This document shows positions 2,233 to 62,094 of a stretch of DNA of 64,000 nt, piece after piece. The notes under the pieces are model-generated. The model worked only from the letters and a program-made list of their open reading frames with translations, was not told the DNA's origin and ran no database searches. The first letter of the stretch is position 1; each line of letters opens with the position of its first letter. The stretch is from Turnera subulata (lineage: Eukaryota > Streptophyta > Magnoliopsida > Malpighiales > Passifloraceae). A program made the translations under genes and the position numbers. Location of the stretch: contig JAKUCV010006724.1 of assembly GCA_028386065.3 (NCBI GenBank), forward strand, positions 1 through 64,000, in the 5' to 3' direction.

Positions 2233-2244
2233 TGTCCCCGAAAT

Positions 2245-6874: not shown

Positions 6875-7000
6875 TCGTACCTATATGAGAATGTATATGT
6901 ATGCATGTCATATCATGTGTGACAAATCTTATGCACAAACAAACAATCATGCAACCACAGTTATGTCCCTAATGACCTACTGCCTGCTCCGCTACCAAAA
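6875..7000 (-). other. E1 leader and primer-binding site
   Basis: On the minus strand the LTR end (CACTTCA) is followed by TTTTGGTAGCGGAGC, a diverged form of the TGGTATCAGAGC site that pairs with initiator tRNA-Met in plant LTR elements. About 110 bp of leader then precede the gag ATG at 6874. Confidence 0.7.
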
Positions 7001-9444
7001 TGAAGTGCCAGACCCGTATTTACCATACACAGTAAACACGTGCCGAAACTATTCACATTGATAATACAGACAGTACAGCTCGCAAGTATTTTACATCAGC
7101 AATTCATATAATACATTCGTCACCCATACTTGGGGACCATTATTCAGCAATACACAACTCACATTATATATAACAGCAACAGAGAAAAGAGCAAGCAACA
7201 GTAGCGGAATTATAATACAGCAACATATGCAACAAAACAGCAGCAGAAGACTCTATGCACATGCAGCAGGGTATGGATCCGGAGTCAGGTGGAGAAGAAA
7301 GCAGCAGCCATCGAACATTGTACCTGAACTACGAAGCAACTAAACCTACGGGATGAAACCTCGCAGGCGAGGGGTGAGTCCGAAGTGCTCACTGACGAAG
7401 GATAAACAGAGAAATATATCAACCGTAATACTTTCGAAGTAAGCACAAACAACACAACAGAAGAATCCAACATAACATCACAACAGAAGAATCTTACTAA
7501 AACGTAACTAAGCCAAGACCAAAACAATGTTTTTTATTATTATTACCAATTTTATCTTCCAGGCCCCGTCACTGGACAAGCTAGGGTCATACCTGGTTAT
7601 TAACTAATTCCGGATGCCAGGCCCAACCATAATCCGGGATCAACATCCCAATATCAACAAATCCGGGATCAACATCCCAATGTCACATATCCGGGATCAA
7701 CATCCCAATAACAACATCATCCGGGATCAACATCCCAATAACAACATCATCCGGGATCAACATCCCCAACAACCAACCAAACCGGCCATGACATCACAGA
7801 ACTAGCCTCTAACCATCTAGTCGTACCACTACTTTCCACGTGACAATTATATCATCATCTCAAGTTCAGTCCAGTTCCATTACTCTATTCTTAATTATAC
7901 AACTTTCCATTATTCCAGATCATACCTCAGACCAAATCATCAACAGACTCATAACGTTAATTAATCACAGCCAACAGTTCAACATTATACAACACAATAT
8001 CCACAACAATCAAATAACAGTCGAAAATCAATTCAGCAGTTCAATCAAACAACAAATCATACACAGTATACGGGCACACATCAAGGGTTATCCATCCTCT
8101 CCTTAGCCGATTATCAGTTTTGGAAATGTCCAATAGACTCCAAGTCCGGCTCCTCAGGTATCTGCTCGTTATCAACTCCTATATCAAACAAATAATATGC
8201 ACATATAAGTGATATGCAAATGTCATGCTACTACTGTATACTGAAAAATAAATACTAACTCGTCTCGGTTACTCCCCCGGGTTATTTCTCTATTATCGTC
8301 ATAATTCACCATTTATTTTCAAGTGTCAAATTAATACCGTTCTTTACTTATACCTGGATATTATTCCGGTATTTTGTTATCTTGATAATACCCTTTCCAA
8401 TTATTTTCAAAACAATAATTATTTCCATAATATACACTATAATATACTTTCTTTTCCAAATAGCATTTATAACAATTATTCAAAATTTTACCCATTATTT
8501 CCTTCCCAGAAATTATTATTTACTAAGTATATATATATTCCTAAAATATTTGTTTCCACAAATTATATTTTATTTTTTTTCCAGATTTAATTTTATTTTC
8601 TTTTTCTTTTTTTTCCGGACTGGGCCTAAATAGTGCTAGCCCAGACCTACTACTTAGACCCAACCCAGACCCCAAATAGGAACCCAGGTGCAGGCCCGTG
8701 CAGGAGGCCCAGTCGACACATCAGCTCAGGCCCAAACGCCCTAACCCAAGTCCATGGCCCAGACGCGGGTCAAACCCATAACGGTCGGGTCGACCCACAC
8801 GAGACCGGGTCAGATCCAACCAAAATGGATCTCCAACCCGCCATGCTCACCTCGCTGTCGACGAAGAGGACGGCACGGCGAGACGAGGCTGACGAGGAAG
8901 GCGACGCGGAAGAGAAAAAAGAGACGACTGTCGGCGTGGCTCGCTGCGGTGGCGACGAGCGGCAAGGGGAGGAGCGGGTCTGCCGGCTCTGCTCGCGGGT
9001 CGTCGCGACGGCTTGGCAACGGGCGGCGCGACTTGCAGCAGTGATGGTAGAGGGGAAATGAAGGAAGGAGGACGGCGGGTGGTAGCTTGGTTGCAGGTGG
9101 GTCTCAGCCGGGTGTGGTGTTGGTCTCGGCGGTGTGGTTCACGGGGAGGGATGGAAGAAGGAAGAAGAAGGTGGGTTGTGTAGGGTGGTTGCCAAAACGG
9201 CAACGTTTGGTGAGTGTGTGTTGTTTAATTTTTTCCTTTCTTTTCCTGGTTGGATTTGTGAAGGGAGGAGAGGTTTGGGTTCTGGCAGTGATGTTTTGCA
9301 GAGCTTGTAGAGGATTTACAGGTGAAGTTTTCTTTTCAGGCAGAAAAAAATGGTGCAGGGAAGAGGGAAAAGGGTCACGGGCATGCACTGGCTATTCACA
9401 TGGCTCACAGTGAATGGCGGCTGCAGCCCCCTCACTGTGTAGCA
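7001..9444 (-). mobile_element. 5' LTR of gypsy element E1 (outer end missing)
   Basis: This is the right-hand LTR of a minus-strand element, about 2.44 kb long. It contains, on the plus strand, the hairpin GGTGAG-loop-CTCACC (about 7372-7394, one outer pair changed), the conserved LTR block next to it, a five-unit hairpin array (7632-7770), an AT-rich stretch (8340-8590) and a GC-rich block (8600-9060) that is antisense to the LTR. The left LTR continues about 310 bp beyond the equivalent of 9444, so this copy is cut at the N at 9445. Confidence 0.85.
7632..7770. repeat. Five-unit hairpin array, GGGAT-CAAC-ATCCC
   Basis: Five copies of CCGGGATCAACATCCC are spaced about 25-30 bp apart. Each unit is an inverted repeat, GGGAT/ATCCC around CAAC. 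Element C has the same stem with other loops (GTTT, GTCT, GTCG), and LTR D has different but matched stems at the comparable position. Confidence 0.85.
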
Positions 9445-23719: not shown

Positions 23720-23724
23720 ATTTT

Positions 23725-23928
23725 TGTTGAAAATAATTTATTATGGAAGAAGATTAATTGAAGGAGATGGAGAAGGAAGAGATGAAATGGAAGAAGTGTT
23801 CTTCTGGCAAAACTTTTTCATTTCATTCTTGTTATTCTTGCCATTATATAGGTACAAAATGATGAAGGGGAGGTAGGTAGGTACAGGAAAAAAACATGAC
23901 ATCCACATTACATGTATTTTTCATAACA
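23725..23928 (-). mobile_element. 3' LTR of copia A (204 bp)
   Basis: It starts TG and ends CA, matches 40080-40281 closely, and is followed on the plus strand by CTCCCCCTTGGATGT, the complement of the polypurine tract. The short length is typical of copia LTRs. Confidence 0.88.
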
Positions 23929-26480
23929 CTCCCCCTTGGATGTTATTGTACTGTATGTAGAATACGCTTAGGGAGTACTGTCTCATTAAAAATCTTACCA
24001 AGAAAAATCCAGTGGGATAAAAACTTGGTGAAGGAAAAAAGAGTGCAGTACGTATTCTATTCCCCCTCATTTTGGCCTCTCTTTATTTCTTGATGTCGTT
24101 GCATGCCAATTATCCTTGTCAACTTCTGGTGACGTGTGCCTTGTCTGATCACTTTTGATACATCATTATTTTAACCGGACAATGTAGGTAACATTATCTT
24201 CATAATTTGTTGTTGGAGCATCTTCCTTTCCCTCTTGCTTTTGTGGTCCCGATGATATAGCAATTTCATGTGTAAAATTATAGCAGACGTCCGCCTGTGC
24301 TTTATGTGGAATAAATGATCTGTATCTGCAAAATCAACTATATCTTTGTTGGGTTACAGGGTTAATATAATGCCATATCTTATTATGTCCCGAAGATAAA
24401 AGCATAGCCATATCTTGCCAATAGGCTTATGGCAGAAGCTGCAGGGTTCATGTTACAAGCAATTTAACAGGGTACTCCAGGATCAATCTAGTTCTTTCAT
24501 GTGTTTTTTTATCTCAAATTCTTTCTTAAAATATAGCACGGCATTTGGAAGCTTCTTCAGGAGTTCCAATAATATTTAAATCACAAAATAATAAATATCA
24601 TACATAAATATGCATCGTCAACGTAAGCAATAATAAATTCATGTACTTATACTATACATACTCATATTAGTTTAAACCATGCACAGATTAATTTAGCTTA
24701 ATTTTGTATATTTTCGGGAATTAGTTGCTTCAAGCAACTTAAATCCATCAGGGATTCTCATGCATATGTCATGACTTATGGATCCATATAAATATAGGCT
24801 GTAATGGCATCCATCTGATGCATTTCCAATTCTTTTCATATAATGCCATACTTTATCAAAAATAATTGCATCCACCATAGGAGAGTATACCTCCTCACAA
24901 TTAATACTAAATCGTTTGGGTAAAACCTTGTGCAATAAGCCGTGCTTTGTATTTCTCTATTATAATTCTCTTTTCGCACAAATACCCATTTTATGACCAA
25001 TAAGTTTACACCATCTGGTGTACGGACTACAGGTCCGAAAATTCCTCGCTTTACAAGCGAGTCTAACGCAGCCTTTAATTATATTTCTCTATTTTGGCCA
25101 ATCAACTTGCGCCTACTTTCATCAACAGGTGTAGGTTCATGATCCTCATTTTCTTTCATAATATTTAGCGCTATATAAAGTAAATATTCCGTCGACGGTT
25201 ATTTCTTGTCGGTTCCACATTATTTCTGACACTGTAATTGAGATCTCATCATACTCATTTATATCAGGTACCTGAGTTACTTCTAAAAACTTTATCAAAT
25301 AGCCTCTTATGGAAGATTTTCCTCTTCTTGAGAACTTCAAATTTGGACCTCTACTGGAGGTCTCATTTTCTCACTGGGGCCATCTTATCACTTTGCTCCT
25401 TTTTTCTCTATCGAGAATTTTTCTTTCTATTGGAACCGAGTATATTCTATGCTTCTGGCGTACTTTGAATTCATTTGCATACTATACTTGTTCTTCTGGA
25501 ACATTAATTTTTGAACAGGAGCATTTGCAGCTAGTATGGTCACACTTTTCAAATCAATAAATATGTCTTGCAATTGACTTAGTAATATTTTGCAAATGAA
25601 TCATCTTTTGAACTTCAGGTTCACACTAATTTGTTTGAGGATCAACAACTATATATTGATAATGTATTTCAATAATATCTTGTTCCAGCTGCTTATTTTC
25701 TCCCCCTGATGTTGGGTAAACTCTTTCACCAAATTAACAATAAACAAATCTTCAATCATTAATCAATGGTTTCTATTACTTTGTAATTGATGGAGATTTT
25801 TATACCCAACATCTATTCCCAACCTTCTTTAAGGATCAATTTTACTATGCTGTGGTGGAGCATTATATACTATATAACTAACGGTCCGAAGATGGGAGTT
25901 ACTAGGTTCGTGACCATGAACCAATTAAATGGGGAGACCTTACGATAACTTGTTGGCTTGATGCACACAGGTGTTGCTGCATGTAAAATACCATTTTCTC
26001 AAATAGTTATATTTCATCAATGGCCCTGCAATCAATTGTCAATGTTCCCCCAGATCTGTTTGGGTTTATTTCCAATGATATACATTATCCAGTGAAGAAA
26101 TATACCAGCATTATCTAGACATATAATCTAATAACATAAGTAGGGATATGTACCCGCAAGTGGCCAAATTATTAAATAAGTGCACACAATGCCAACTTGC
26201 ATCACACAATGGACTATCTAGTCGATGCATCGTAAAAAATTACCTAGATGGTCAACACGACGGAGTTATTGGTCAGCGTACATGTCCCTGAATTATTTCC
26301 AAAACTTGCTGGTGATTCCAGGCCAATCTCATCTTAGGAAGGCTATATAATTAATTTCGCAGCACACAAATACGTGGAAATTCATTGATTGTAAAACTTC
26401 TGGTTTTTCAATGAATGACCCAATAAATTTCATGCATCATTATTGACCTGGGATGGCCCAACCGGTCATGCCAAACAATA
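23929..26480 (-). pseudogene. Decayed copia pol (integrase and reverse transcriptase remnants)
   Basis: Minus-strand traces: a GAG-pre-integrase block (VWHDRLGHPRSIMM, about 26430-26475), integrase (LDNAGIF near 26120, then GHEPSNSHLRT and PPQHSKI near 25850-25920), and reverse transcriptase (EEVYSPMVDAI, then LYGSISHDICMRIPDGFKLL, 24720-24920). Frames change and stops are frequent, so no domain is usable. Downstream towards 23929 RNase H is not readable. The same remnants, differently broken, occur in copia B. Confidence 0.82.
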
Positions 26481-26490
26481 AGTCCATATA

Positions 26491-26790
26491 CCAACTTCAA
26501 GTTGGTGCCAGCTTCAGGCTGCTATTTATGTGCCAACTTCAGGCTGCTATATATATGCCAGCTTCAGGCTGGATAACTTAGAAAAATTATTTACCAGCTT
26601 CTGGCTGGTGCATACTAGCTATAAATTAAATATCTATCAGCCAACTTCTAGTTGGTCTCAGCTTCTGGCTGTATAAACTTGTGTATTTAAACACTTAAAA
26701 TTGCTAGCTTCAGGCTAGAGCATTTCAGCTTCTGGCTGGATATGGTAAGTTTAATAACTTAGATTGCTAGCTTTAGGCTGCAATATATGT
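26491..26790. repeat. Constant-loop hairpin array, copia A (pol-proximal part)
   Basis: Small inverted repeats share a TTC-A/T-G/A loop but differ in stem: CCAAC/GTTGG (26491, 26641), CAGC/GCTG (26509 and others), CCAGC/GCTGG (26558, 26594), CTAGC/GCTAG (26704). Both stem arms change together. The same array recurs in copia B at 62095-62410. Confidence 0.85.
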
Positions 26791-26986
26791 GCCAATTTTA
26801 GGCTTATATCTGCCACTCATGTCGGAAAAAATCAGAATTATTGAGCAATAATTAAATGTGGAGGTAAACTTTTCCAAAAACACCTTTGGAGTTTTGTGAA
26901 AAAACCGAAAAATCTTCAGGATCTTTTCGGAGACAGAAAAAGGGGTCCATATTTGAAAAATGACACCATGCTGTCTAAGTTCAGGC

Positions 26987-26993
26987 TATAAAA
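26987..26993 (+). promoter_or_regulatory. TATA box of the antisense gene, copia A copy
   Basis: TATAAAA followed by GAGACAG lies 65 bp before the ATG at 27052. The copy in element C has TATAAAAGACAG and copia B has TATAAGA at equivalent places. Placement and repetition support a promoter. Confidence 0.65.
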
Positions 26994-27051
26994 GAGACAG
27001 TATTATGTGGTGAAGCATATAGATTCAGAAAAACCACATAAAGACAAAAGA

Positions 27052-27702
27052 ATGCCTTCCCCAATAACTGTCTTCTTTGTTGAGGGTGCCTCTCTAGGAA
27101 GGAGGAATAGGCTAGCATATAGCATGGTTAATGAACAGCAAGAGGAGTTACTGAGTGAACTCGCTAGAATTCCTCGTTTGGTATTTGTTGATGAACTATA
27201 TTCATCCAGATTCTTTGTAACTCCTATGGAAGAAACTTTCTTCCTAGAGGACCAAGGCAATCTAAGGGCTTCATTTTATGGCTCGGCTAACTCAATTATG
27301 TTTTTCATATCTGATAGACTGCAGGAGTTTCAGCTAGAGCCATCTTGTCAAATTCTGAATCAAAGCAGCTATTATCAAGTTTACATGATGGCTCGGAGTA
27401 TCCCGAGGGTTTCTGGGTTATCGCCTACATGGCCCAAGGTACGACTTTTATTATGGAATTGCAGGGGAGTGGCCAGGCGGTCCCAAGATTTCGTGCGTAC
27501 CTTAAGGGATCTGAAGAATCAGTACAAGCCCAACATGGTACTGATTACTGAAACTCTGTGGCAACCAGCAGAGAATCATGGAGTAATACCACTCCGTTTT
27601 CCTCCAGCAAATCGGTTTGAGCTATCTGGAGAAAACAACATGGGTGGTATGTGGTTCTCCTGGAACTACAGTGTTAGGGTCAACATCAATAACGAGGCCT
27701 AG
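27052..27702 (+). CDS. Antisense passenger gene, copia A copy (lightly truncated)
   Basis: An open frame of 216 codons, sense on the plus strand and therefore antisense to copia A. It begins MPSPITVFFVEGASLGRRNR and ends at a TAG (27700-27702) that replaces the Gln codon seen in copy B; homology continues to 27735, so about 10 residues are lost. The first 130 residues are of unknown type. Residues from about 131 (RLLLWNCRGVARRSQ, VLITET, GGMWFSW) resemble the N-terminal part of plant LINE endonucleases, including the Asn and Glu motifs, but lack the later catalytic His/Asp motifs. It sits between the gag-like and pre-integrase regions. Its function is unknown, and a nuclease activity is not supported. 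Confidence 0.75.
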   Translation: MPSPITVFFVEGASLGRRNRLAYSMVNEQQEELLSELARIPRLVFVDELYSSRFFVTPMEETFFLEDQGNLRASFYGSANSIMFFISDRLQEFQLEPSCQILNQSSYYQVYMMARSIPRVSGLSPTWPKVRLLLWNCRGVARRSQDFVRTLRDLKNQYKPNMVLITETLWQPAENHGVIPLRFPPANRFELSGENNMGGMWFSWNYSVRVNINNEA

Positions 27703-27739
27703 AGTTTTAGGGCCAATGTTGTACCCAATCGATAAATAA

Positions 27740-28710
27740 TTTGTTCTGCTTATGTATGAGAACAATTCTTCTATGTGGATGTTCCCAAGTAGTGAATCCC
27801 TTATGCAATAATAATATGCATATTTTCCTTTAGCCTTGCCATTGTCATAATCTTTATGGCCATAATAATTCCTTCCATGTCCTTGGCAACAGGCACAATC
27901 ATAACTAACTGTCTCATTCACTTCAAGGAATGGAGCAGAATCGATTTATTGGATCTGTAATAATTTCTTTAATTACTGTAAACAAGAATATTTTGTACTC
28001 TTCAGGAGTTTATACTCTTCCAGAGCGTAAGTATATGATCTTCTAGATCATAGTTACACTTGTGTTCTTCACAGTACAGGTATGTAACAGTATTCACATA
28101 CAGTTTTCCTCTCCCCCTTGAATGCTATTGCATTTTTGGGTAGGTGAAATATTGCTCTTCAGGAGCACAATAAAAACCCACGCTTTTCTGGAGCGGATTA
28201 GTTTACTTTTATATGGAGAATTTCCGTTTATTAATTTCGGAATATATCATTGCATTGTCTTCAGGACAAATGCCCGGGTCATTATTCGAGAAACGACAAA
28301 TCAATGTACATATAAAAAGAATTAGGCAGCAATAAAGATAAACATAAGGTAATAAATATAATAAAAATAATAAAACTGAACATAAAAATAAAATTAATCA
28401 AGATATATTAATTTGCACCTTCAGGGTAAGCAAGAATAATATTTCAATATCGTGGTCATTATCTCAACCAAATATGGTTTCATCAATATTACATTTGTCC
28501 TTCAGGGACACGCATTTTGCTTCAGGTGCGTACACTTGTAATTAAATTTTGTGAGAATACCCATCTTCTGGTGGTCATATAATATCCAACTTCTGGTGGT
28601 CATTTAATATTTTATTTATTTATTTATTTAAAGATCTGCAGGATCTTTTGGCAATAAGACTTCCGGTCTTTGCCGTATTTTTCTTTTATTTGAGTCTTCT
28701 AGACTCTTTT
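27740..28710. repeat. Constant-loop hairpin array, copia A (gag-proximal part)
   Basis: Dispersed perfect inverted repeats with loops TTCAG, TTCTA, TTCCG or TGCAG: ACTC/GAGT (27997), TATGATC/GATCATA (28034), TGCTC/GAGCA (28153), TTGTC/GACAA (about 28255), TGTCC/GGACA (28496), AAAGATC/GATCTTT (28630), AAGAC/GTCTT (about 28656), GAGTC/GACTC (28692). On the minus strand 27750-27920 reads as a gag-like stretch (CQGHGRNYYGHKDYDNGKAK) without a clear zinc knuckle. The array continues in copia B at 63590-64000. Confidence 0.8.
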
Positions 28711-28850
28711 ATTTAGTCTTCCAAACTATTATTATTTAAATGGATTTCAGCATTTAATGCCCATGATAAATTTTTTCCAGAAATTTTGAGGGCCTCAAAT
28801 TCAAATAACATAAGTTCAAAATTAAATAAAAGACATAAATTAAATAAACA

Positions 28851-29086
28851 TGGGCCTTTTATGAGCCCAATTTAAAAAAAGTTAAATAAATGAAAATTAA
28901 ATGCAATGGGCCTTGTGAAAGCCCAATCAAAACGTAAATTAAAGCAAGAAAATAAATATAATGGGCCTTTTCATAGCCCAATAAATAACCAAAAATTAAA
29001 TGCGATGGGCCTTGTACGAGCCCAAGCGAAATATAAATGAGATTAAAACAAGAAATTAAATGGAATGGGCCCTTTTTAATAGCCCA
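28851..29086. repeat. Five-unit TGGGCC...AGCCCA repeat
   Basis: Five degenerate units at about 28851, 28907, 28971, 29006 and 29066 carry TGGGCC, 4-8 bases, then AGCCCA. Each unit is an inverted repeat, and on either strand it shows TGGGCC/T, the site II motif bound by TCP factors in plant promoters. It lies in the copia A leader, so a transcriptional role is plausible but inferred. Confidence 0.6.
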
Positions 29087-29159
29087 ATCGAAATTTAAAT
29101 AAAAACATAAAATATGCTTACTCGATAAATCTTTCAGCAATATATATATGTTTTTTTTC

Positions 29160-29851
29160 CTTTTTATTTCTTTTCTCTGTTTTTTTTCTTTTTTTTAATT
29201 ATCGGGTTGGGCTTAAACAAGACCAGCCCAGACCTCTGCACAGTGGCCTTAGTGCCAAGCCCAGGCCCGTGCAAAGGCCCGAGCCAGCCAGCCCAGCGCC
29301 CAAGCCCAGCACTAGGCGCGGCCCGAGTTCGCTGACCCGTCGGGTCAGTTCGACCCATCCGGGTCGTCTTCCTCAGCTCGCGGGTCACCGGAAGTGGCGA
29401 GTTGCAGGCGACGCAACGCGGTCGGCGAAGGCGAGCGGGGCGACTTGAGGCGCTGCAGCACGCGGTGTGCAGCGGCTGCTGGTGCTGCAGGCGTCGGCAG
29501 CAGGAAAGGACGGATCGCCTCGGCACGATGGCGACGGTGCAGGAAATGAGAGCGGCTACGGCGTCAACTGAAATGACTGCGAGAGGCGGCGTCGCGGTCG
29601 CTGGTGGAGGCAACGTCGTCGGCAGGAGGAAACTGCGGACGGTTGTTCATGCACAGGAGGCAGACCCGACTAGGCAGTAACGGGTTGCGGGTTTCGTCGT
29701 CGGGTTTTCTCTTGCTGTCGGCGCGTCCGGCGGCGGCGTCGGAAGGGGAAGGTTGCTTCGAGGTCGCGCCGGTATGGGCGAGGCGATGGTGGCGGCGGTG
29801 AGACGGGTAGTGGCACAGAACGGTTACGGATGAACAGTAACCGAGACGCTG
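29160..29851 (-). other. GC-rich leader block of copia A
   Basis: A T-rich tract (29150-29200) is followed, on the plus strand, by GGGTTGGGCTTAAAC, many GCCCAG motifs and a strongly GC-rich stretch. Its order and words (GCCCAGACCT, AGGCCCGTGCA) resemble the block at 8610-9060 in the E1 LTR, although the elements belong to different superfamilies. Short open frames here look compositional. It ends at the CGCTG target duplication of element C. Confidence 0.6.
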
Positions 29852-30177
29852 TGTAACAGCCCGGGTAAAAATTTGGATTTTACCGGGACTGTAAAAGTCG
29901 TTATACAGTGATTTACCTTTGAATTTAATCTTGGGTAATTAATTCAAGGTAAATCGGGCGTCGTTTTTCGTAACCGAGGCTTTTCCCGCGCTCATGATTT
30001 TTCCGTGGATTTTTCGGACCTAAGTTGGTATTTTTCGGGTCCCAGAATTCTAGGAAAAATCACACCGGAAAATAACTAAGGGGGTATCAGTTATTTTCTG
30101 GTCCAGACCGGACTCGCTCCATAATGCAGACAAGCTGCATTATTGGATGATCACACGTTGAATAGCATTTTTACGTC

Positions 30178-30185
30178 TATAAAAA
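30178..30185 (+). promoter_or_regulatory. TATA box of the element C LTR
   Basis: TATAAAAA lies after GTATAG-poor sequence and about 35 bp past the 9-bp inverted repeat, repeated in the 3' LTR at 35187-35194. It would set the start of the element's sense transcript (U3/R border). Confidence 0.6.
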
Positions 30186-30780
30186 GAAGAAGAGAGCAGG
30201 AGAAGGGGAAGAAGAGAAAAAGAGGAAGAAAGGAGAGGGAAAAAAAAAAAAGAGAGAAAGAAAAAAAAAAGAGTGAAAAAAAAAAGAAAAGAGAAGAGAA
30301 GAAAAAGAAAAAAAAAAGAGGAGAAAGAGAGAAAAAAGAAGAAGAGAAATCGGGAAAAAAAGAGAAGAGAAATGAAAAAAAAAAAGAAAGAATCAATCAG
30401 AAAATCAGAAAAAAAGAAAGAAAATGTAAGAAAAAGAATTGAAAAGAAAATAAGAAAACGGAAGAAATGGGCACTGTTCACCGTCACCCTGTCACTATAC
30501 ACGAGAGGACGATCGGCGCAGTCTCGTGCCTCACCGCCACCACCAGCAGGACGCCCGAGCCGTCGCCGACCTGTCGTCGCCTTCCCCGTCGCTTTCCGCC
30601 GCCGGACGCTCCGTCAGTCGCTGTTGACCCGCGAGCAGACCCGCGGATCCACCTCCTTCGCGCCTCCCGCCTTCTGCCGTCGCCACCACGCCCTTCCTGC
30701 TGCCGTTCCAGAGTCGCCTCAGCCTCGCCGGCCCCGCGCTCTCTTCCTCGCGCCTGTGCTGCCGCCGTTCGCCGCTGCAG

Positions 30781-31504
30781 GTGAGCAACCCGTTTTCACG
30801 GGCGGGTCGCGGCCGGGTCGCGCCTGGGTTGGATCCTGGGCAGCCCGATTTATTTACAAAGAAAAAAAAACAAAATATATATATGTATTTATTTGTTATT
30901 CTGGTATTTAATTTTGAAAAAAAATATATATACACTTTGAGAAAATTATGATCAAATTAATTCTGGTGTTTTGGGGAAAATATAAATATATATACATGGA
31001 TAAATAATTAAGTTATATTTTGGGAAAAACTATTATTAATTGGAAAAAATTAATATATATGTACCATGAAATAATTTCTGAGAATTATATATATATATAT
31101 ATATATATATTATTTTCCCTGGACTATTATGGTTGTGAAATATATATATATATATGTACCTTGAAAATTAAAGGTAATTATATTTTGTGTTGGAAAATAT
31201 TATTATATATATTTTTAGAAAAAGATAAATACTATATATATTTTCTGGAAATTATAAATACGTTATTATTTTGGGAAATTATGGTGATTATATTTTGGGA
31301 AGTATAATAAATTTATGAAAATATTTTGACAAAAGTTTTAATTAAAGTATGGTACCGAAATTATATTCGGATATACGTACGGTATAATATTTTCGGTAAA
31401 AGATGATAATAAAGGATATGAACCGGGATGGGGTATTTCGCAGTTTTGGCATCATAGCATACCGATTATGTGCATTTATGTGTATATATTGTTTTGTTGT
31501 ATAG
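30781..31504 (+). other. Candidate intron inside the element C LTR
   Basis: A GC-rich block ends CTGCAG and meets GTGAGC at 30781, a near-perfect plant donor. AT-rich sequence follows to TTTTGTTGTATAG at 31504, then a short segment (31505-31580) that ends in AAG before GTGAGG, another donor match. LTR D shows the same plan (donor 36098, acceptor 36578). Splicing is inferred only. Confidence 0.4.
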
Positions 31505-31675
31505 GTTCGGATATCGGACAGTTTCCCGAGGAGCCGGCTTCGGACCGGTCATTGTCTTCGGAATTGAGTAATCGGCCAAGGTGAGGATGGATTTCCTTCA
31601 ATATGTGCCTGTATTACTCGGTTATTATGTTTGATGATTATTGCTTTGTTGGATGTTGCATTTGCTGTGGTTTGG

Positions 31676-31935
31676 TTCGGGATATTTATCTCATTGTCTT
31701 GATTGTTGTCGGGATGTTTATCCCAGTATTGAGATTTGGTTTTGAACGATAATATAATTGTCACGTGATAAGTAGTGGTACGACTCGATAGTTTAAGACT
31801 GTTTTGTGGTGGCCATGACCTGGGTTACTTGTGATAAGCATGTCTATGCTTGGGATGTCTATCCCGTGATTATTTTTGGGATGTCTATCCCTGGGTTCGT
31901 ATTTTTGGGATGTCGATCCCTGGGTTCTCTTGGAT
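31676..31935. repeat. Hairpin array of the element C LTR
   Basis: Five or so units of GGGAT, 4 nt (GTTT, GTCT, GTCG), ATCCC at about 31676, 31711, 31850, 31877 and 31905 (the first with one stem change). The stem is the same as in E1 but the loop differs. Confidence 0.75.
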
Positions 31936-32120
31936 TTGGTTTGGCACCCGAAATATGTTGAGAACCAGGTCTGACCCCTAGCTTATTCGTGACGGGGCCC
32001 GGAAAGATAAAATTGGAAAATTTGATTTTATTTGAGTCTTTTTGGACTTGGACCAGTTTGGGGTCGAGTTTTTGGTTTGGTATGTATTATAGTGTGCATA
32101 TTGATTGTCTATCCTTCATC

Positions 32121-32141
32121 GGTGAGCACTTCGGACTCACC
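32121..32141 (+). other. Conserved LTR hairpin with a cTTCGg loop
   Basis: GGTGAG pairs with CTCACC around CACTTCGGA, which contains the very stable cUUCGg tetraloop in RNA. The same block stands at 569-589, 7372-7394 (minus), 37306-37326 and 39586-39606. A second stem follows in each (CTGCGGG with CCCGTAG here and in its relatives, with changes). Confidence 0.65.
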
Positions 32142-32481
32142 CCTCACCTGCGGGCTTTCATCCCGTTGGATGGATTATTTGTGGTACAGGTTTGGTGCAT
32201 TCCAGACAGGCTGCGGCGTTATCCCTTGGACAGGGCTTGGATCCATAGTTTGCATCTATGTCGCATACAGTGTCTTTGTGAGTTATTAAGTCTTCCACTG
32301 TGCATTATTTTTACTATTGATGGGCCATTGGGCTGGTTATGTTGTTATTGACGTTATTATTTTTGGGCTGTTGAGCCCGAGTTACTGTTGTATACACTGT
32401 ATGCTGGGCTTGGTTTGGTTGGGTCGTCATAGTTCCGGCACGTGTTTACCGTGTACGGTAAATACGGGTCGGGGCGTTTCA

Positions 32482-32660
32482 TTTTGGTAGCGGAGCGGGC
32501 GTTAGGTCTTGTTGGGCAGTCTTTGTTTTTGTTGTCCTTGTTTGCATAGTTCGCTCCATTTGTTTATTATTTTATATCATGTTAGTTAGTGCATTATGGA
32601 TCCAGTCAAGGGACGCCAGCTGTCGCAGAACATACACATAAGAGGTAATGATGCCATTAA
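32482..32660 (+). other. Element C leader, primer site and gag start remnant
   Basis: TTTTGGTAGCGGAGC follows the LTR end directly. At 32596 ATGGATCCAGTCAAG would encode MDPVK, like the MDPV start of E1 gag, but the frame loses gag similarity within a few codons and stops after about 30. This marks where foreign sequence replaced gag-pol. Confidence 0.7.
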
Positions 32661-32751
32661 TAAGCGAAAATCTAAATATTATTAATATTGCTAATATTAA
32701 AATTACAAGCATAAATATTACATTGATATTTTATAAAAATAAAAAGTACAT

Positions 32752-33435
32752 TCATCTTCTTGGAACGACGTTGACCCTGAAGCTGTTGGGGTCATTGTTG
32801 ATGTTGACCGTGATGTTGTCGCTCCACGAGAACCACATGTTGCCCCTGTTGTTCTGGCCGGGAAGCTCGAACCGGTTTGCTTGAGGGAATCGGAGTGGGA
32901 TGAGACCGTGATCGTCTTCAGGCTGCCACTGGGTCTCCGTGAGAAGGACCATGTTTGCCTTGTACTGGTTCTTCAGGTCCCTCAGGGTACGCGAGAACTC
33001 CTGGGAACGCCTAGCGACTCCTCTGCAGTTCCACACCAGTAGTCGGGCCTTTGGCCAAGTTACGGGTAACCGAGTGACTCTGGGCATGCTTTGGGCCGTC
33101 AACGAGAGCCGGTAGTAGGTACCTTGCTCCAGGAAATGGCAAGTGGACTCTAGGTTGAACTCCTGAAGTCTTTCAGAGATGAAAAACATGATGGAGTTGG
33201 CCGAGCCGTAGTAGGAGGTCCTCAGAGTGTCTTGGTCCTCTAGGAAGAAGGTCTCTTCCATTGGAGTGACGAAGAATCTGAAGGAGTAGAGTTCGTCGAC
33301 AAAGACCAGACGAGGCATCCTGCCGAGCTCGTTCGGTAGTTCTTCTAGACGCTCGTTGATCATACTGTAGGCCAGCCGGTTTCTTCTGCCTAGATTGGCA
33401 CCTTCGACGAAGAAGACGGATGATGGAGCAGGCAT
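32752..33435 (-). CDS. Antisense passenger gene, element C copy (intact, 227 aa)
   Basis: A complete minus-strand frame, MPAPSSVFFVEGANLGRRNR to VVPRR, antisense to element C. It aligns without visible gaps to the copies at 27052 and 62706 at about 70 percent identity by eye. Unknown N-terminal region 1-130 (well conserved: RLVFVDELY 42-50, FFVTPMEETFFLEDQ 54-68, GSANSIMFFIS 77-87). LINE endonuclease-like part from about 131: WNCRG 135-139, TET 166-168, MWFSW 200-204. The family's later catalytic motifs are absent. Third codon positions are GC-richer than in the copia copies. A TATA box lies 112 bp upstream. A reading such as a regulator or accessory protein of the element is inference. Confidence 0.85.
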   Translation of the reverse strand: MPAPSSVFFVEGANLGRRNRLAYSMINERLEELPNELGRMPRLVFVDELYSFRFFVTPMEETFFLEDQDTLRTSYYGSANSIMFFISERLQEFNLESTCHFLEQGTYYRLSLTAQSMPRVTRLPVTWPKARLLVWNCRGVARRSQEFSRTLRDLKNQYKANMVLLTETQWQPEDDHGLIPLRFPQANRFELPGQNNRGNMWFSWSDNITVNINNDPNSFRVNVVPRR

Positions 33436-33546
33436 CGTGTTCTGGATGCGTGGGTATTCTGTTTTCTCTGAGCATTGTGGTTTTGTTTGCCTGAGCGTTT
33501 GTTTGCTTTAAGATGTTTTTGATGATTTGCTTCTCACCGCACTGTC

Positions 33547-33553
33547 TTTTATA
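33547..33553 (-). promoter_or_regulatory. TATA box of the 227-aa antisense gene, element C copy
   Basis: On the minus strand TATAAAAGACAG lies 112 bp before the ATG at 33435. The copia A copy shares TATAAAAGAGACAG. This gives a predicted leader of about 80 nt. Confidence 0.65.
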
Positions 33554-34297
33554 CTCTTATGGGGAGCGTGATTACTGTTTTCGATTTTCAAGATTTTGCT
33601 TTTTGAAATTTTGTCGTTGCTTTATTTATTGCTTCGTTACTTTATACGTTTTTCGGGCTACAAATGCTAGTGTTTTTCAGCTCTTTTCTAACTCACGATT
33701 TTCTTTCGCCTTGGCTACTTTGTCCTTTCTTTTTATGGTTTTTCTATATTTTTCTACATCTTTTATCACATGCATCCATGGCCGTTGAGGCTAGACTGAT
33801 GGGACCATACCTCGAGTAGAGTGCATGTGCAACAAGGTCACACCTGTTCGGACGCCATGGAGGGATACGAGACTTGACAGACGTTTTTGGCTCATGCGGA
33901 ATTTGTGAACAAGTGGGTATCGTTTCTATCGAGGGACACAGGACGTGCTCGTGATCATCGCCTTGCCAGTTAACGGACGTCTTTTTCACGAGGGAAACCG
34001 ACGTCACCGTTAGTTGCGCGTGATACGTTTCTCGGGATCGAGGATGGTCACGATCGATCTAGAGCGCCGAACATGAAAACATGTTTTGTTTTAACTTCTT
34101 TATGTTTTGAATTTATTAAACAAATTTTGTTTTTAATTTCTTTATGTTCGATTTTACATCCTTATTGTTGATTTTTAATCTGCTTTGTGATGTTTTGTTG
34201 TTTAACACGAAATTTCATAACATAAGAGATTTTGATTTAAAAAGAAAACTTATTTTATTTATTTTATAACAGTTTTACAATACAGAGAAGAGGTACT
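33554..34297. other. Spacer between the two antisense genes of element C
   Basis: About 740 bp. The part next to 33554 is pyrimidine-rich on the plus strand and is the upstream region of the 227-aa gene. The part near 33780-34070 is more GC-balanced, with no convincing frame (an 87-codon minus-strand stretch has no recognisable feature). Confidence 0.5.
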
Positions 34298-34675
34298 CTA
34301 CTGAGTTACATGCTTCTCTAGGTCTTTTACAGGTTTTTGGACGTTTTTGACGTGAGGAAAGAGTTCCGCGCACGCCAGTTCTATCTGCATCACCGCCGAG
34401 CTGATCTTCTTCAGTGAGACGTTCAGCTGCGTCAGTGTCTGCTGCGGAGTGCTGCTTTCGGAAGTTGCCTTGCCCTTCTTATCCTCAGCCTTCTTGTTGG
34501 CACGCTTCTTTCGTTGTCTTGGGGAGACGACCATGTGTTCCTTCAGGCCGATGATGTTGGTTTTGAACCGCTTCTTGGGAGGTTCTTCATCGGAGCTTGT
34601 CGGGAAGGCAGTGCCACCGATGTAGCTGTTGTTCTCGGAGTCTGAGGTAGTTCCAGATCGGATTGGAGAGTCCAT
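34298..34675 (-). CDS. Second antisense gene of element C, 125-aa basic protein
   Basis: Complete minus-strand frame, MDSPIRSGTTSDSENNSYIG to HVTQ. I do not recognise the family. An acidic, Ser-rich N-terminus (to about 33) is followed by PPKKRFK (33-39), a classical nuclear localisation type, and a second basic cluster (RQRKKRANKKAEDKKGK, about 53-69). A C-terminal region of about 50 residues (LTQLNVSLKKISSAVMQIE) has helix-like heptad spacing. It is transcribed in the same direction as the 227-aa gene, 0.86 kb upstream of it, with its own TATA box. A nuclear, perhaps nucleic-acid-associated protein is plausible. No second copy exists in the window to test selection. Confidence 0.65.
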   Translation of the reverse strand: MDSPIRSGTTSDSENNSYIGGTAFPTSSDEEPPKKRFKTNIIGLKEHMVVSPRQRKKRANKKAEDKKGKATSESSTPQQTLTQLNVSLKKISSAVMQIELACAELFPHVKNVQKPVKDLEKHVTQ

Positions 34676-34710
34676 GACTGTGTGTGAGTTTGCAAGTCAT
34701 GAGGTTCAGT

Positions 34711-34717
34711 TTTTATA
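34711..34717 (-). promoter_or_regulatory. TATA box of the 125-aa antisense gene
   Basis: Minus strand CTCTATAAAAACTGAACC; the box starts about 42 bp before the ATG at 34675, so the leader would be only about 10 nt. That is short, and a different start is possible. Confidence 0.5.
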
Positions 34718-34837
34718 GAGGACGAGATGTCGCTTAAGGGTATAAGCGACATATCAGGTCGAGTTTGGACACCTGGCAGAGTGTGCCAGAAGCTTATCGT
34801 GGTAGGACCCACGGATAAGACGGAATTTCGGAGACGA

Positions 34838-34860
34838 AATTCTTTTTAAGGTGGGTAGAC
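34838..34860 (+). other. Polypurine tract of element C
   Basis: TTTTTAAGGTGGGTAGAC stands directly before the TG of the 3' LTR and almost equals the E1 tract (minus strand, 2210-2232). Confidence 0.7.
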
Positions 34861-35245
34861 TGTAATAACCCGGGTAAAAATTTGGTTTTTACCGGGACAG
34901 TAAAAGTCGTTATACAGTGATTTACCTTTGAATTTAATCTTGGGTAATTAATTCAAGGTAAATCGGACGTCGTTTTTCGTAACCGAGGCTTTTCCCGCGC
35001 TCGTGAAGTTTCCGTTGATTTTTCGGACCTAAGTTGGTATTTTTCGGGTCCCGGAATTCTCGGAAAAATCACTCCGGAAAATAACTAAGGGGGTATCAGT
35101 TATTTTCTGGTCCGGACCGGACTCGCTCCATAATGCAGACAAGCTGCATTATTGGATGATCACACGTTGAATAGCATTTTTACGTCTATAAAAAGAAGAA
35201 GAAAGCAGGAGAAGGGGAAGAAGAGAAAAAGAGGAAGAAAGGAGC

Positions 35246-37684
35246 TGTAACAGCCCAGGTAAATTTTTCGTTTTTACCGCGACCGTAATTTCTTTGCATA
35301 GTGATTTACCGGAAGGAATTAACCTTTAGTAATTATTTCATGGAGAACCGAGCATCGGATTCTAATTCCGAGTCTCGATTCATACCCCGGATATTTTTAC
35401 GGAATTTCCGGGACGAGGTAGAATTTTCCGGACTGGTAAAAGTGCGAAAAGACGAAAATGCCCCTAGGTTAAAACAAAACCTAAAGGAAACAAGAAGGGC
35501 AAAAAGGTCTTTTAATGAATCAGATTTTTCCTGCAATCATGCGCACACAGGAACCCCTATAATTGCTCAATAATTGGCAGATTTTTCCTTCATCTTGTCT
35601 GCCACAATTAATTGTTTTTTTCCCTTCCTTGATTTTATATAACAAAGAAAATTCTGCCCCTGCTGTCCAGAAGTACGCCACCAGCTTGCTGCTTTGTCTA
35701 AACTCTTAACAGACATCTTCCATTAGCATACCCATATACCTATATTTAAAAAAAAAAAAACACAACCAGGAAGAAACCCGGCTGCAAAACGACGTCACCC
35801 CTCCCCTTCCTCTTCATCTTCTCCGACCACCACCACCACCGCGTGCGGCGCCCCGGCACTCCCTCCTTTCCTCGCGCATCCATCGCCACTGCCAGGATCT
35901 GCAACGCCGCCATCTCTTCCCCTCCATCCACTTCGTCGCGTCTTCATCACATAAGCACCGGGACGAGGAGACCACCGCGACCCGCCGCACTAGCAATCCC
36001 ATTTCTGCCGCCGCCTTGTCGAGCTGAGTCGTCCTCATCGTCGCGTCTCGCCACCACTCGCAGTCGCCCTCGTCAGCCGCCGCCTGCCGTCTGCTAGGTG
36101 AGCAGAACGAAAGTAGGACGACCCGGATGAGGAGCTCGTGGGTCAAGCCAACCCGGGTATGAGATTGGATCTGACGGTTCGGGTGGGTTGATTCGCGGGC
36201 CGGGTTGGTGGTCCGGGTCAGGGCTTGGGCCTTCCTGGGCCTGGGCTCTGCACCTGGGCCTTGCACTGTTGAGGTTTAATAAATTGGACCAGGGCTTGGT
36301 CTAACTAGCCCAGTCCGAAAATAGGAAAAAAAAAATAAATAATAACAGAATTTAGTTAGTGGAATTTATACGGAAATAAATACATACCTATAATCTGGAA
36401 GTATAATAAATAATAGCTATTAATAATAATAATTTTAGGGAAGTATATATTATCAAGGGAATAATTTGGATAAAAATAATAATTACTATAAGACACTATA
36501 AATAATTACGGGAATAGATAATTATACATGCATATCATTTTGTGTGCATTTACGTGATTGTGTGATAATATATGTTAGGTGAAGTGAACGAGAACGTGGA
36601 CTTGGAACCCGAGGGCGAAATTCCCGAGGAATTCGTCAACTAAGGTGAGGACAAGTAATTGTTAATATTCAGCCCTTTATGCTAAGTTACGGTTTGATGA
36701 TGTCTTGTTGTGTGTGCCTTGTTGTGAATAAAATTGTGATTGAGAATGATTGAATGCATGCTGTGTTGTTATACTTGCTGTTATTGCTATATGGTGTGGA
36801 AACCGGGTGGACTTGAGATATGGCTAAGAATGTTATGACGAGTTGAGAGAGAGTCTACACGGGACCGGTTGTGAAAATTAAGTGACAGAGGGTAATAATA
36901 ACGGAATCACCTAGACAGTTAGATAATCACAATTAAGTGTTGGTACGGCCAGATGGTAGTCCACTTGTGTATTGAGTTATGACTTGATTTATAATAGGGA
37001 GGACTGCGGGACTCCCGACCGAGGACTGCGGGACTCGGTTTTGAGATATTGTGATTTGAGATATTTTGGTTTACGGGGAGTACCCTGGGGTTAGCTAACC
37101 TGGCTACCAGGCACGGCCAACATTTAAATTGTGATAGGGGCCCTGATAATAAAAATTGAATTAGTTTAACAGGTTAGACCTTAGGAAGTTAACCGGGGAA
37201 ACGTAGAAGCAAGTTAAGGTTTTTGCCATGTGATATTTTGTTTGTTTCTGGTAACTTGGTTATAATGGATGCTTGTATATTAATTATTTCTTGTGGATTT
37301 TACCCGGTGAGCACTTCGGACTCACCCCTCGCCTACGTGACTCGGTCGCGTAGATTGATTTGTTTTAGCACAGGATCGTGCCAGGCAAGCTGCGGCGTAC
37401 CCTCTGCCAGTCCCGGATCCATACTCCGCTGCATCTTATCATTGTGGTGTGCTGTTGTTATTTCAAGTCTTCCGCTGCTGTTGTGTGTTTCTTGTTTTTG
37501 TTGGTTGTTGGTGAGACTGTTTGTATAATAATTACCCCCGTGCTCGGGTTGTGTGTGTGGTTTGTTATATCAAATTATGCTTGGGTTTGTCCTTATTGTA
37601 TGACTTGGACGTTGTTAATCCTGTAATAATAAGATGGCCTCGTGTTTACTGTGACTAGCGGTAAATTCGGGTCAGGTTGTTTCA
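35246..37684 (+). mobile_element. Solo LTR D (2439 bp) inside the element C 3' LTR
   Basis: It starts TGTAACAGCCCAGG and ends TTGTTTCA. GGAGC (35241-35245) and GGAGA (37685-37689) flank it, a 5-bp duplication with one change. No internal region is present, so it arose by LTR-LTR recombination. It shares the LTR plan of E1 and C: TATA-like TATATTTAAA (35740), GC-rich block with donor GTGAGC (36098), acceptor (36578), short conserved segment, hairpin pair (36997-37038), GGTGAG/CTCACC hairpin (37306-37326). The sequence is clearly a different subfamily. Confidence 0.88.
36997..37038. repeat. Two hairpins with one loop and two different stems (LTR D)
   Basis: Two adjacent units share the loop GACTGCGGGA exactly. 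The stems are GGGAG/CTCCC (36997-37016) and CCGAG/CTCGG (37019-37038): both arms changed together. Confidence 0.8.
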
Positions 37685-39951
37685 GGAGAGGAAAAAAAAA
37701 TAGAGAAAGAAAAAAAAAAGAAAAGAGAAGAGAAGAAAAAGAAAAAAAAGAAAAAAAAGAGAAAAAAAAGAAGAGAAATTGGAAAAAAAAGTGAAAAAAA
37801 TGAAAAAAAAAGAAAGAACCAATCAGAAAATCAGAAAAAAAGAAAGAAAATAGAAAGAAAATGTAAGAAAAAGAAAAGAAAAGAAAATAAGAAAACGGAA
37901 GAAATGGACACTGTTCACCGTCACCCTGTCACTGTACACGGGAGGACGACCGGCGCAATCTCGTGCCTCACCGCCACCACCAGCAGGACGCCCGAGCCGT
38001 CGCCGACCTGTCGCCGCCTTCCCCGTCGCTTTCCGCCGCCGGAAGCTCCGTCAGTCGCTGTTGACCCGCGAGCAGACCCGCGGATCCACCTCCTTCGTGC
38101 CTCCCGCCTTCTGCCGTCACCGCCGCGCCCTTCTTGCTGCCGTTCCAGAGACGCCTCAGCCTCGCCGGCCCCGCGCTCTCTTCCTCGCGCCTGTGCTGCC
38201 GCCGTTCGCCGCTGCAAGTGAGCAACCCATTTTCACGGGCGGGTCGCGGCCGGGTCGCGCCTGGGTTGGATCCTGGGCAGCCCGATTTATTTAAAAAGAA
38301 AAAAAACAAAATATATATATGTATTTATTTGTTATTCTGGTATTTAATTTTGAAAAAAAATATGTATACACTTTGAGAAAATTATGATCAAATTAATTCT
38401 GGTATTTTGGGGAAAATATAAATATATATACATGGATAAATAATTAAGTTATGTTTTGTTAAAAACTATTATTAATTGGAAAAAAATAATATATATGTAC
38501 CATGAAATAATTTCTGAGAATTATATATATATATATATATATTATTTTCCCTGGAAAATTTTGGTTGTGAAATATATATATATATGTACCTTGAAAATTA
38601 AAGGTAATTATATTTTGTGTTGGAAAATATTATTATATATATTTTTAGAAAAAGATAAATACTATATATATTTTCTGGAAATTATAAATACGTTATTATT
38701 TTGGAAAATTATGGTGATTATATTTTGGGAAGTATAATAAATTTATGAAAATATTTTGAAAAGAGTTTTAATTAAAGTATGGTACCAAAATTATATTCGG
38801 ATATACGTACGGTATAATATTTTCGGTAAAAGATGATAATAAAGGATATGAACCGGGATGGGGTATTTCGCAGTTTTGGCATCATAGCATACCGATTATG
38901 TGCATTTATGTGTATATATTGTTTTGTTGTATAGGTTCGGATATCGGACAGTTTCCCGAGGAGCCGGCTTCGGACCGGTCATTGTCTTCGGAATTGAGTA
39001 ATCGGCCAAGGTGAGGATGGATTTCCTTCAATATGTGCCTGTATTACTCGGTTATTATGTTTGATGATTATTGCTTTGTTGGATGTTGCATTTGCTGTGG
39101 TTTGGTTCGGGATGTTTATCCCATTGTCTTGATTGTTGTCGGGATGTTTATCCCAGTATTGAGATTTGGTTTTGAACGATAATATAATTGTCACGTGATA
39201 AGTAGTGGTATGACTCGATAGTTTAAGACTGTTTTGTGGTGGCCATGACCTGGGTTACTTGTGATAAGCATGTCTATGCTTGGGATGTCTATCCCGTGAT
39301 TATTTTTGGGATGTTTATCCCTAGGTTCGTATTTTTGGGATGTCGATCCGTGGGTTCTCTTGGATTTGGTCTGGCACCTGAAATATGTTGAGAACCAGGT
39401 CTGACCCCTAGCTTATCCGTGACGGGGCCCGGAAAGATAAAATTGGAAAATTTGATTTTATTTGAGTCTTTTTGGTCTTGGACCAGTTTGTGGTCGAGTT
39501 TTTGGTTTGGTATGTATTTGGTGGTTTTTACCTGTTTTTGACCTTGAGTACTTATAGTGTGCATATTGATTGTCTATCCTTCGTCGGTGAGCACTTCGGA
39601 CTCACCCCTCACCTGCGGGCTTTCATCCCGTAGGATGGATTATTTGTGGTACAGGTTTGGTGCATTCCAGACAGGCTGCGGCGTTATCCCTTGGACAGGG
39701 CTTGGATCCATAGTTTGCATCTATGTCGCATACAGTGTCTTTGTGAGTTATTAAGTCTTCCATTGTGCATTATTTTTACTATTGTTGGGCCATTGGGCCA
39801 GTTATGTTGTTATTGACGTTATTATTTTTGGGCTGTTGAGCCCGAGTTACTGTTGTATACACTGTATGCTGGGCTTGGTTTGGTTGGGGCGTCACAGTTC
39901 CGGCACGTGTTTACCATGTACGGTAAATACGGGTCGGGGCGTTTCACGCTG

Positions 39952-40079
39952 TGAGGTGATGAACTGTTCCTCCATTCGGTTTCTCTTCTTCCCACTATTT
40001 TTCTTCCCATTTTTTTTTCTGCTAGTTTTTGCACTGATTTGTTTTTCTTGCTTGGGTAGAGGCAGTCGTGCTGATAACG
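39952..40079 (-). other. Copia A leader and primer-binding region
   Basis: On the minus strand the 5' LTR end is followed by CGTTATCAGCACGACTGCC, a primer-site-like sequence seen after LTRs of some plant copia elements. The T-rich remainder continues across element C to 29851. Confidence 0.6.
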
Positions 40080-40281
40080 TGTTGAAAATAATTTATTATG
40101 GAAGAAGATTAATTGAAGTAGATGGAGAAGAGGAGATGAAATGGAAGAAGTGTTCTTCTGGCAAAACTTTTTCATTTCATTCATGTTATTCTTGCCATTA
40201 TATAGGTACAAAATGACGAGGGGGAGGTAGGTAGGTACAGGAAAAAACATGACATCCACATTACATGTATTTTTCATAACA
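40080..40281 (-). mobile_element. 5' LTR of copia A (202 bp)
   Basis: It matches 23725-23928 almost base for base, ends CATAACA, and is followed by the target duplication ATTTT (40282-40286). Confidence 0.88.
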
Positions 40282-57671: not shown

Positions 57672-58652
57672 ATGTGCATTTCCTTGCATCTCGAACAATT
57701 GTTGCCTATTGGATTAATTACGTAGATGAAATTCACAAAAGGGAAGAAGTTATATGATCTGCACCCATTAGCATGTCCGGAATCCATGTATCTTAGTATT
57801 GGCAAGTACTGGCGGTGAAATCCTCTTGAACGGGTGTGGTAATCGCTTAGGGATTGGTTTAATGCATTAAATTAAATCGAGTAGTATAGATAAGGCTGTT
57901 GAAATATTTGAATTGGTTAACTAAATAAAAGTTTGAATAGAATAATTTGATGAATTCTGATTAAGATCCACAAATGGTAAAAAAAAAAAATGAAATGTCT
58001 GGATAGGAAGAATGTCTAGTATAGGTTTGTTTTTGTAAGCAGGGAGGCCGATGTGCACATTTATGCCTTTGGCAAACGGGGACTCCCATTTCAACTCAAG
58101 GTCTACTTATACTCTCACCCTGGAAATTTTTTATATTCTCACCTAGGACAGAGTGGGTAGGTGTTCAGGCAACTATTTTATTGTAGTTATTTTATTTGAA
58201 GATGTTCATAATACAGTAACGCATTTCATTCTATTTAGTTTAGCATGTGACACCTCTTGCACGCTTTACCTTATGCAATATGTTGAAATTGAAACCAAAA
58301 GAATGTGTGTCTAATATCATTTCTAATTGAAGGTGGGAAGCAAGTATGGCACTAAACCAGAAGTGTAAGAAAATTTGATAACTATAATAAAATGATTGCA
58401 TCGTTAATGTTTCAATTATGTGATTTATTTGTTAATATTTCTAATATGTATATCGTTAAAATATATATTGTCGAGAGAGCATCAAATATGTCACTATGAA
58501 TATTTTAACATGCTTAAAAAAATATAGATAGCATCATTTATGCCCAACAATGTCATTCCACACTTTTTATTCACTTTAAACAATTCACACAGCTTGAGGA
58601 ATAATATAACAATGATAGTATTTAATCAAACATAACTCTATTATAAATAATT
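57672..58652. other. Intergenic region
   Basis: AT-rich sequence without recognised genes or repeats, ending at copia B. Confidence 0.5.
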
Positions 58653-58835
58653 TGTTTAATGGAAAGAATTTTCATGAATGAAGGGGAAGATGAAGAAGAT
58701 GGAAAGAAGAAGAAGAGATAGAGAGGAAAAGATGAGCTCGGTTTTTTTTCATTTCACATATCATCTGTATTTCTGTTATACACAATATATAGGGGAAGGT
58801 AGGCAGTACAGTGCCATCCACTTTTTTTTATAACA
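58653..58835 (-). mobile_element. 3' LTR of copia B
   Basis: It ends TTTTATAACA, adjacent to the polypurine tract complement. The TG start at 58653 is chosen by analogy with copia A (TGTTTAATGG against TGTTGAAAAT) and is uncertain by some bases. Confidence 0.6.
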
Positions 58836-62090: not shown

Positions 62091-62094
62091 ATCC

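Follow-up and report, generated by a model that had tools for sequence, protein, structure and literature searches.

Several plant gypsy elements carry additional open reading frames (ORFs) in antisense, described for Grande (gene23), RIRE2, Retand (TRP28) and PvRetro13 (PMC7264820; PMC11963269), and in bdelloid rotifers ORF3s of the same types (GDSL, DEDDy) occur in unrelated long terminal repeat (LTR) lineages and in Penelope-like elements (PMC5408684). The subject here is a gene, designated O, that is present three times in a stretch of 64,000 nucleotides from the 518.7 Mb genome of Turnera subulata (assembly GCA_028386065.3; positions 1-64000 of contig JAKUCV010006724.1, our C6082), a stretch that we call the window. 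Each time it lies antisense within an LTR retrotransposon, of copia type in two cases and of gypsy type in the third, and elsewhere in the genome a mariner-type DNA transposon has it too. The classes of transposon are assumed to evolve separately, and in the openly licensed PubMed Central literature we found no case in plants of one antisense gene common to copia and gypsy elements, or to Class I and Class II elements.

The VANDALs of Arabidopsis are DNA transposons. They possess an accessory gene, VANC, whose target motifs are in non-coding tandem repeats, and VANC6 lines also hypomethylate AT9TSD1, which is unrelated to VANDAL (PMC5735166). As reported in the available part of PMC9289625, a screen of 121 plant assemblies recorded domain gains in gypsy elements and none in copia elements; gene O in copia-type elements would, if our reading is true, be a counter-example. 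The word "antisense" is absent from the available part of PMC6317226.

Results

The original prediction was that one gene of 227 codons occurs at 27052, 32752 and 62706 as cargo common to two LTR superfamilies. All three ORFs are present: O1 at 27052..27702 on the forward strand (216 codons, with homology running on to 27735), O2 at 32752..33435 on the reverse strand (227 codons) and O3 at 62706..63389 on the forward strand (227 codons). The predicted length thus holds for O2 and O3 and not for O1, which an in-frame TAG (codon 217) stops early. The three copies align over 684 nt with zero indels. At the protein level O2 is 73% identical to both O1 and O3, and these two are 91% identical to each other; at the DNA level the values are 71-73% for O2 against the copia-type copies and 89% for O1 against O3, and each element has its own copy. 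A tblastn search of the window with O gave no further convincing match (best other E 0.03). A chance ORF was also considered, and was rejected on the codon-position differences of the three pairs (37/30/122, 43/28/130 and 18/9/48; p 6e-8 to 2e-20).

O1 lies in C1, a copia-type element on the reverse strand (23725..40281) with the target-site duplication (TSD) ATTTT at 23720-23724 and 40282-40286, a 3' LTR at 23725-23928 and a 5' LTR at 40080-40281 (96.6% identical by BLAST). C1 is interrupted by element B, the host of O2, a non-autonomous gypsy-type LTR element on the forward strand (29852..39946; TSD CGCTG at 29847-29851 and 39947-39951). Its 5' LTR (29852-32481) and internal region (32482-34860) are followed by a 3' LTR in two parts (34861-35245 plus 37685-39946), inside which sits a forward-strand solo LTR of a related family (35246..37684). 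LTR divergence by the Kimura two-parameter (K2P) measure is 2.6% in C1 and 2.5-3.7% in element B, on LTR pieces compared apart and with the C1 LTRs cut two or three bases off their ends. O3 lies in C2, a second copia-type element on the reverse strand (58639..64000, and on to contig position 65580), whose LTRs are 88.5% identical. The O3 ORF is open despite this 11.5% LTR difference (contig C6082, 58639-65580), an amount of decay that an ORF without selection would not easily survive.

As predicted, each of the three copies is antisense to its host, the host orientation being taken from the positions of the LTRs, of what we take to be the primer-binding site (PBS) and polypurine tract (PPT) motifs, and of weak remnant domains. 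On the sense strand C1 and C2 have the order O, gag_pre-integrase, SH3, RVT_2, LTR, which would fit copia. These domain matches all fall under the curated cut-offs (E 0.073, 0.004 and 0.058), that to RVT_2 being seen in C2 only and the frames having been translated with X at stops; motifs like those of reverse transcriptase (RT) were spotted by eye in the copia-type elements. The host at 32752 had been called Ty3/gypsy-type, and its LTR, PBS and PPT region bear this out; no gag-pol match was obtained within it, and it sits inside C1. No Pfam match to gag-pol was obtained in the three plus frames of 32482-34860 or in the three minus frames of 33436-34860, so that element B is classed as gypsy-type by its LTR, PBS and PPT region only. 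We presume that it belongs to the Del/Tekay lineage.

The O protein is under selection. The ratio of nonsynonymous to synonymous substitutions (dN/dS) is 0.07-0.15 in all three pairs, whether estimated by YN00 or by maximum likelihood (ML), NG86 giving no dS for two saturated pairs; the divergence of B-type from C-type O is old (dS 1.4-2.8). The copia pol of C1 and C2, on the other hand, evolves as non-coding DNA and lacks coding constraint: of 15 ungapped blocks, short as these are, none shows codon periodicity (Fisher p 0.39), whereas in 500 draws of gene O cut to the same block lengths the number of periodic blocks had a median of 8 out of 15 and was never 0. Since these pol blocks are non-periodic and the pol frames of C1 are riddled with stops, the copia-type family has been without a working pol for a long time and yet has kept O.

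Both the copia-type and the gypsy-type O families are high-copy in the genome. With the O3 protein as query, the best 150 of 7981 copia-type candidates were scored; 104 of the 150 list no stop (counted by eye, and biased because these are the best-scoring). Twenty copies spread over this ranking were fetched, and all 20 adjoin copia-family sequence on one side or both, with the same relative orientation, the only one that the flank search covered; 14 of them are without an in-frame stop (two with a small indel). With O2 DNA as query, the best 40 of 4421 gypsy-type candidates were scored. Among the best 24 of these, 22 belong to the element B family (the window copy, L010 and L013-L032) and two, L011 and L012, are mariner-type; the contig C1961, among the other 16, is mariner-type by its coordinates. 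Antisense matches in number within both superfamilies, which the original prediction had named as support for a mobile passenger gene, are therefore found in the Turnera genome (20/20 copia-type and 22/24 gypsy-type loci).

Element B also carries a second antisense ORF, B2 (34298..34675, reverse strand; 125 aa, lysine/arginine-rich), with TATAAAA at -42. It was found in all 22 element B copies examined, where both O and B2 are antisense to the LTRs. In-frame stops are absent from O in 12 of 24 rows (22 B and 2 mariner) and from B2 in 13 of 22 (a few with small indels). Across codon positions, the variants that copies share are strongly biased: 19/20/62 for O in the 22 B and 2 mariner copies (p 1.7e-8), 29/19/61 for B2 in the 22 B copies (p 1.8e-6) and 17/6/53 for O in 22 copia copies (p 4e-11). 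The corresponding private variants number 56/46/66 (p 0.17), 36/37/48 (p 0.33) and 40/36/61; insertions with respect to the reference copy are excluded from these counts. A gene that is under selection while it propagates, and no longer so once inserted, gives this pattern.

Four of the 22 copies of element B adjoin C-family copia sequence (L010, L017, L024 and the window copy at 29852-39946), which lies on both sides in three of them and on one side in L024. This could reflect either a nesting preference or mere abundance.

The two mariner-type loci have about 3.7 kb in common, in pieces (95-97% identity), including part of a DDE_3 transposase (E 5e-5; 23.6 bits against a cut-off of 28.6). 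The terminal inverted repeats (TIRs) of L012 are imperfect (33-35 nt) and their motif is presumably that of Stowaway; a TA adjoins the right end and is one base off at the left. In both loci a full O copy, 93-95% identical to B-type O, runs on the other strand from the transposase. The likeness extends beyond the ORF, as the element B stretch 32629..33722 (reverse strand), comprising the upstream region, O2 and its 3' part, is also in L012 at 90% identity. Behind the full copy the mariner element holds part of a second O copy from another lineage. On C4215, C1961 and C2039 the transposon part and O are again found a similar distance apart (293-301 bases up to the full copy); for C5589 the listing has just a piece of the second copy, at a distance that fits. 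In the tree, B plus the mariner copy form a clade (support 100/100) and a clade of B without the mariner copy appears in 1% of 200 bootstrap trees; a direction from gypsy-type to mariner is favoured, without being proven. Beside O in L012 (3941-4234, reverse strand) there is an ORF with a coiled-coil look by eye, and the segment around it is also on 7 other contigs without the mariner part.

The second O copy in L012 led to a further large lineage of O genes, of which the best 150 of 7565 were scored (79-100% identity) and about 1.1 kb of adjoining sequence was read. The upstream regions of O in element B, in the copia-type elements, in the mariner host and on C2104, a contig of this fourth lineage, have a module of 60-90 bp in common, which is repeated in the mariner host and on C2104. 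In the window it lies at 33574..33663 (reverse strand) for O2, where it is similar to the copia, mariner and fourth-lineage modules, at 62459..62525 (forward) for O3 and, as a short match, at 26885..26913 (forward) for O1. The module comparisons score 34-70 against 23-30 for four control stretches, and in 8 of 8 comparisons the score was reached by none of 500 shuffles, the weakest (mariner host against C1, 34) being one above the best shuffle. There is no 10- to 13-mer that the four upstream regions all share. Of the 37 contigs that have a module match, 17 have a listed O gene downstream of it in the correct sense, one of these being the query's own and four being mariner elements; the other 20 are not judgeable, as only the best genes are listed. 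This count drew on 33 of the 150 further-lineage places, 3 gypsy-type ones and 42 of 81 module rows, which cover the 37 contigs. Contig C4508 (38156-46669) holds a tandem array of at least two O genes and four upstream modules, of which three are 2.07-2.08 kb apart.

Closer to the gene, the TATA box TATAAAAG occurs 65 nt upstream of O1 (26987..26994, forward) and 118 nt upstream of O2 (33546..33553, reverse); the same string is found 9 times in the window, counting both strands. The O unit thus consists of an upstream module, a single ORF and a short 3' part, with a TATA box in O1 and O2.

As for the protein, the C-terminal part of O weakly matches PF03372, the LINE (long interspersed nuclear element)-type endonuclease (endonuclease/exonuclease/phosphatase, EEP), in 4 of 5 proteins scanned; in O2 the aligned residues are 134-214, and they correspond to the beginning of the profile (positions 2-88 of 225). 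The last 100 residues look like the first third of the fold, and because only this third is present O is probably not a working nuclease. The N-terminal ~128 residues gave no significant match. Pfam scans of O1, O2, O3, two mariner-element copies and B2 gave no match to PF04195 (TRP28). Nothing was found in protein databases, whether the query was O2 or a three-row alignment, or in scans of viral and prokaryotic contigs.

Other features of the window include a gypsy element on the reverse strand (1008..9444) with matches to gag, protease, RT, RNase H and integrase. Its LTR pieces are 68-89% like those of element B and the PBS is near-identical, making it a candidate for the kind of source from which the machinery of element B may come. 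Two inserts have long inverted arms, one at 59994-60808 (178 nt, 92%), a TIR-bounded insert in C2, and one at 41963-43349 (198 nt, 89%); they are probably MITE (miniature inverted-repeat transposable element)-like or foldback elements. At 16861-18030 and 20707-21872 a pair of gene pieces lies in tandem; they are 66% similar to each other in DNA and have a sugar-transporter look by eye.

Discussion

Gene O is shared by these elements, it is antisense in the copies read, its protein is under selection and its copies have an upstream module in common. It seems to us likely that O is a self-contained accessory gene, an antisense resident of copia-type, gypsy-type and mariner-type transposons of different origin. 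The mariner host, the second antisense gene B2, the shared upstream module and the dead pol all go beyond the original prediction.

How might such a gene operate? O and its own promoter may have been passed between carriers at the DNA level, most clearly in the case of the gypsy-type and mariner elements, and O would be transcribed from this upstream promoter, against the host transcript. The protein, perhaps together with B2, could act in the nucleus, enabling its carriers to escape silencing or to get transcribed, and the replication enzymes for these carriers would be supplied by other elements. From its anatomy, O is probably an accessory protein with a nuclear role. Anti-silencing in the manner of the VANC proteins of VANDAL transposons would be the most likely form of that role, and still a rather doubtful one; we name it on two grounds: O could be selected in carriers that lack gag-pol only through an effect on those carriers' copies, and the upstream module resembles VANC targets in being partly tandem. 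A bolder version, in which O is a mobile gene above transposons (a promoter plus ORF with no replication gene, passing antisense, at the DNA level, across retrotransposon superfamilies and DNA transposons and repaying otherwise dead or gene-less carriers, for example by silencing escape), is tentative and has somewhat less than even chances.

Among the alternatives, the best surviving is that copia-type, gypsy-type and mariner elements independently captured a host gene, with no passing between transposons. Capture of genes by plant transposons is well described (PMC7264820), and the age of the B-to-C divergence (dS 1.4-2.8) would suit it. We nevertheless hold it to be unlikely: the mariner copy groups within or next to the B clade, with 93-95% identity and B's own flanks; the copies read carry O antisense with a like upstream module; and, except for C2104, all copies whose flanks were read sit in repeat families, although with the best 40-150 matches scored a single-copy host locus could hide. 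It is less probable again that O comes from an unrecognised parent element, LINE-like or viral, of which the LTR and mariner copies are fragments. The endonuclease-like C-terminal part of O speaks for this, as does the large further lineage, part of which is in the tandem array on C4508 and whose flanks on C2104 fit none of the three host types; what we find inside both LTR families, however, is a full-length conserved ORF with its upstream module, under selection. A third possibility, that only the antisense transcript matters (through small interfering RNA, siRNA, or promoter interference) and the ORF is incidental, draws on the discussion of antisense transcripts of LTR elements as regulators (PMC7264820), but it is very improbable given the codon-position bias, the low dN/dS and the absence of indels in the window copies, which argue for a selected protein. 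Finally, that the sharing is an artefact of nested insertion or of mis-drawn element borders, the first of which was anticipated in the original prediction and is true of the neighbours C1 and B, is hardly credible, since O1 and O2 are only 73% alike and in different elements, O2-type genes lie between the LTRs of 22 B copies, copia-family flanks accompany 20/20 copia-type copies, and every copy read has its own O gene, though the sample was chosen by gene.

Several observations weigh against the accessory-gene interpretation that we prefer. The function proposed for O is read from its anatomy, and a trans-acting protein should go unselected in a non-autonomous element unless the protein works chiefly on copies of that element. 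In each of the four proteins that match PF03372 the score stays under the curated cut-off (E 0.014-0.18; 11.9-15.6 bits against 24.5), and the Pfam scan gave no such match for O3; profile searches of the PDB gave chance matches only and no solved-structure relative, and an AlphaFold model from three rows was useless (predicted local distance difference test, pLDDT, 37.6). Private variants in the copia O copies are uneven across codon positions (p 0.019). C2 is without a canonical TATA box and has TATAAGAAG instead. By the approximately unbiased (AU) test, from which 15 of 22 copia rows were excluded, a clade of B that leaves out the mariner copy is not rejected (p 0.41). For the fourth lineage, the flanks on C2104 (L053/L054) match no body of the gypsy-type, copia-type or mariner hosts outside the upstream region. 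Lastly, the window copies alone give mixed support for homology beyond the ORF. Of 500 shuffles each, the numbers reaching the score of O1 against O2 and of O3 against O2, respectively, were 0 and 79 for upstream 0-130, 13 and 5 for upstream 130-330, 381 and 386 for upstream 330-700, 62 and 111 for downstream 0-150, and 15 and 181 for downstream 150-270; the module became clear only once the mariner and fourth-lineage copies were added.

If O is indeed an accessory gene of this kind, copia-, gypsy- and mariner-type elements share accessory functions, which could explain the long activity of families without a working gag-pol. With one gene, three unrelated carriers and one shared upstream module, O also offers a handle on the role of plant antisense ORFs in general.

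The plant gypsy antisense ORFs resemble O in being antisense, kept in many copies and suspected of a nuclear regulatory role, and that of Grande resembles it further in having its own promoter (PMC7264820; PMC11963269). O differs from them in its placement, near the 5' LTR in element B and upstream of the integrase remnants in the copia-type elements, in having a DNA transposon host too and, with respect to Retand, in its lack of a TRP28 (PF04195) match. The rotifer ORF3s are like O in that one ORF type is found across unrelated elements, but they are different enzymes, in rotifers and in retroelements, and the available part of their description mentions neither antisense placement nor a DNA-transposon host (PMC5408684). 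With VANC the parallel is in anatomy only, an accessory gene together with a shared, partly tandem upstream module, and with the LINE-type endonucleases O has in common only the start of the fold, fused to an N-terminal ~128 aa without significant match. Antisense ORFs and the sharing of ORFs between elements thus both have precedents; what our literature searches did not turn up is one antisense gene, with its module, in copia-, gypsy- and mariner-type elements.
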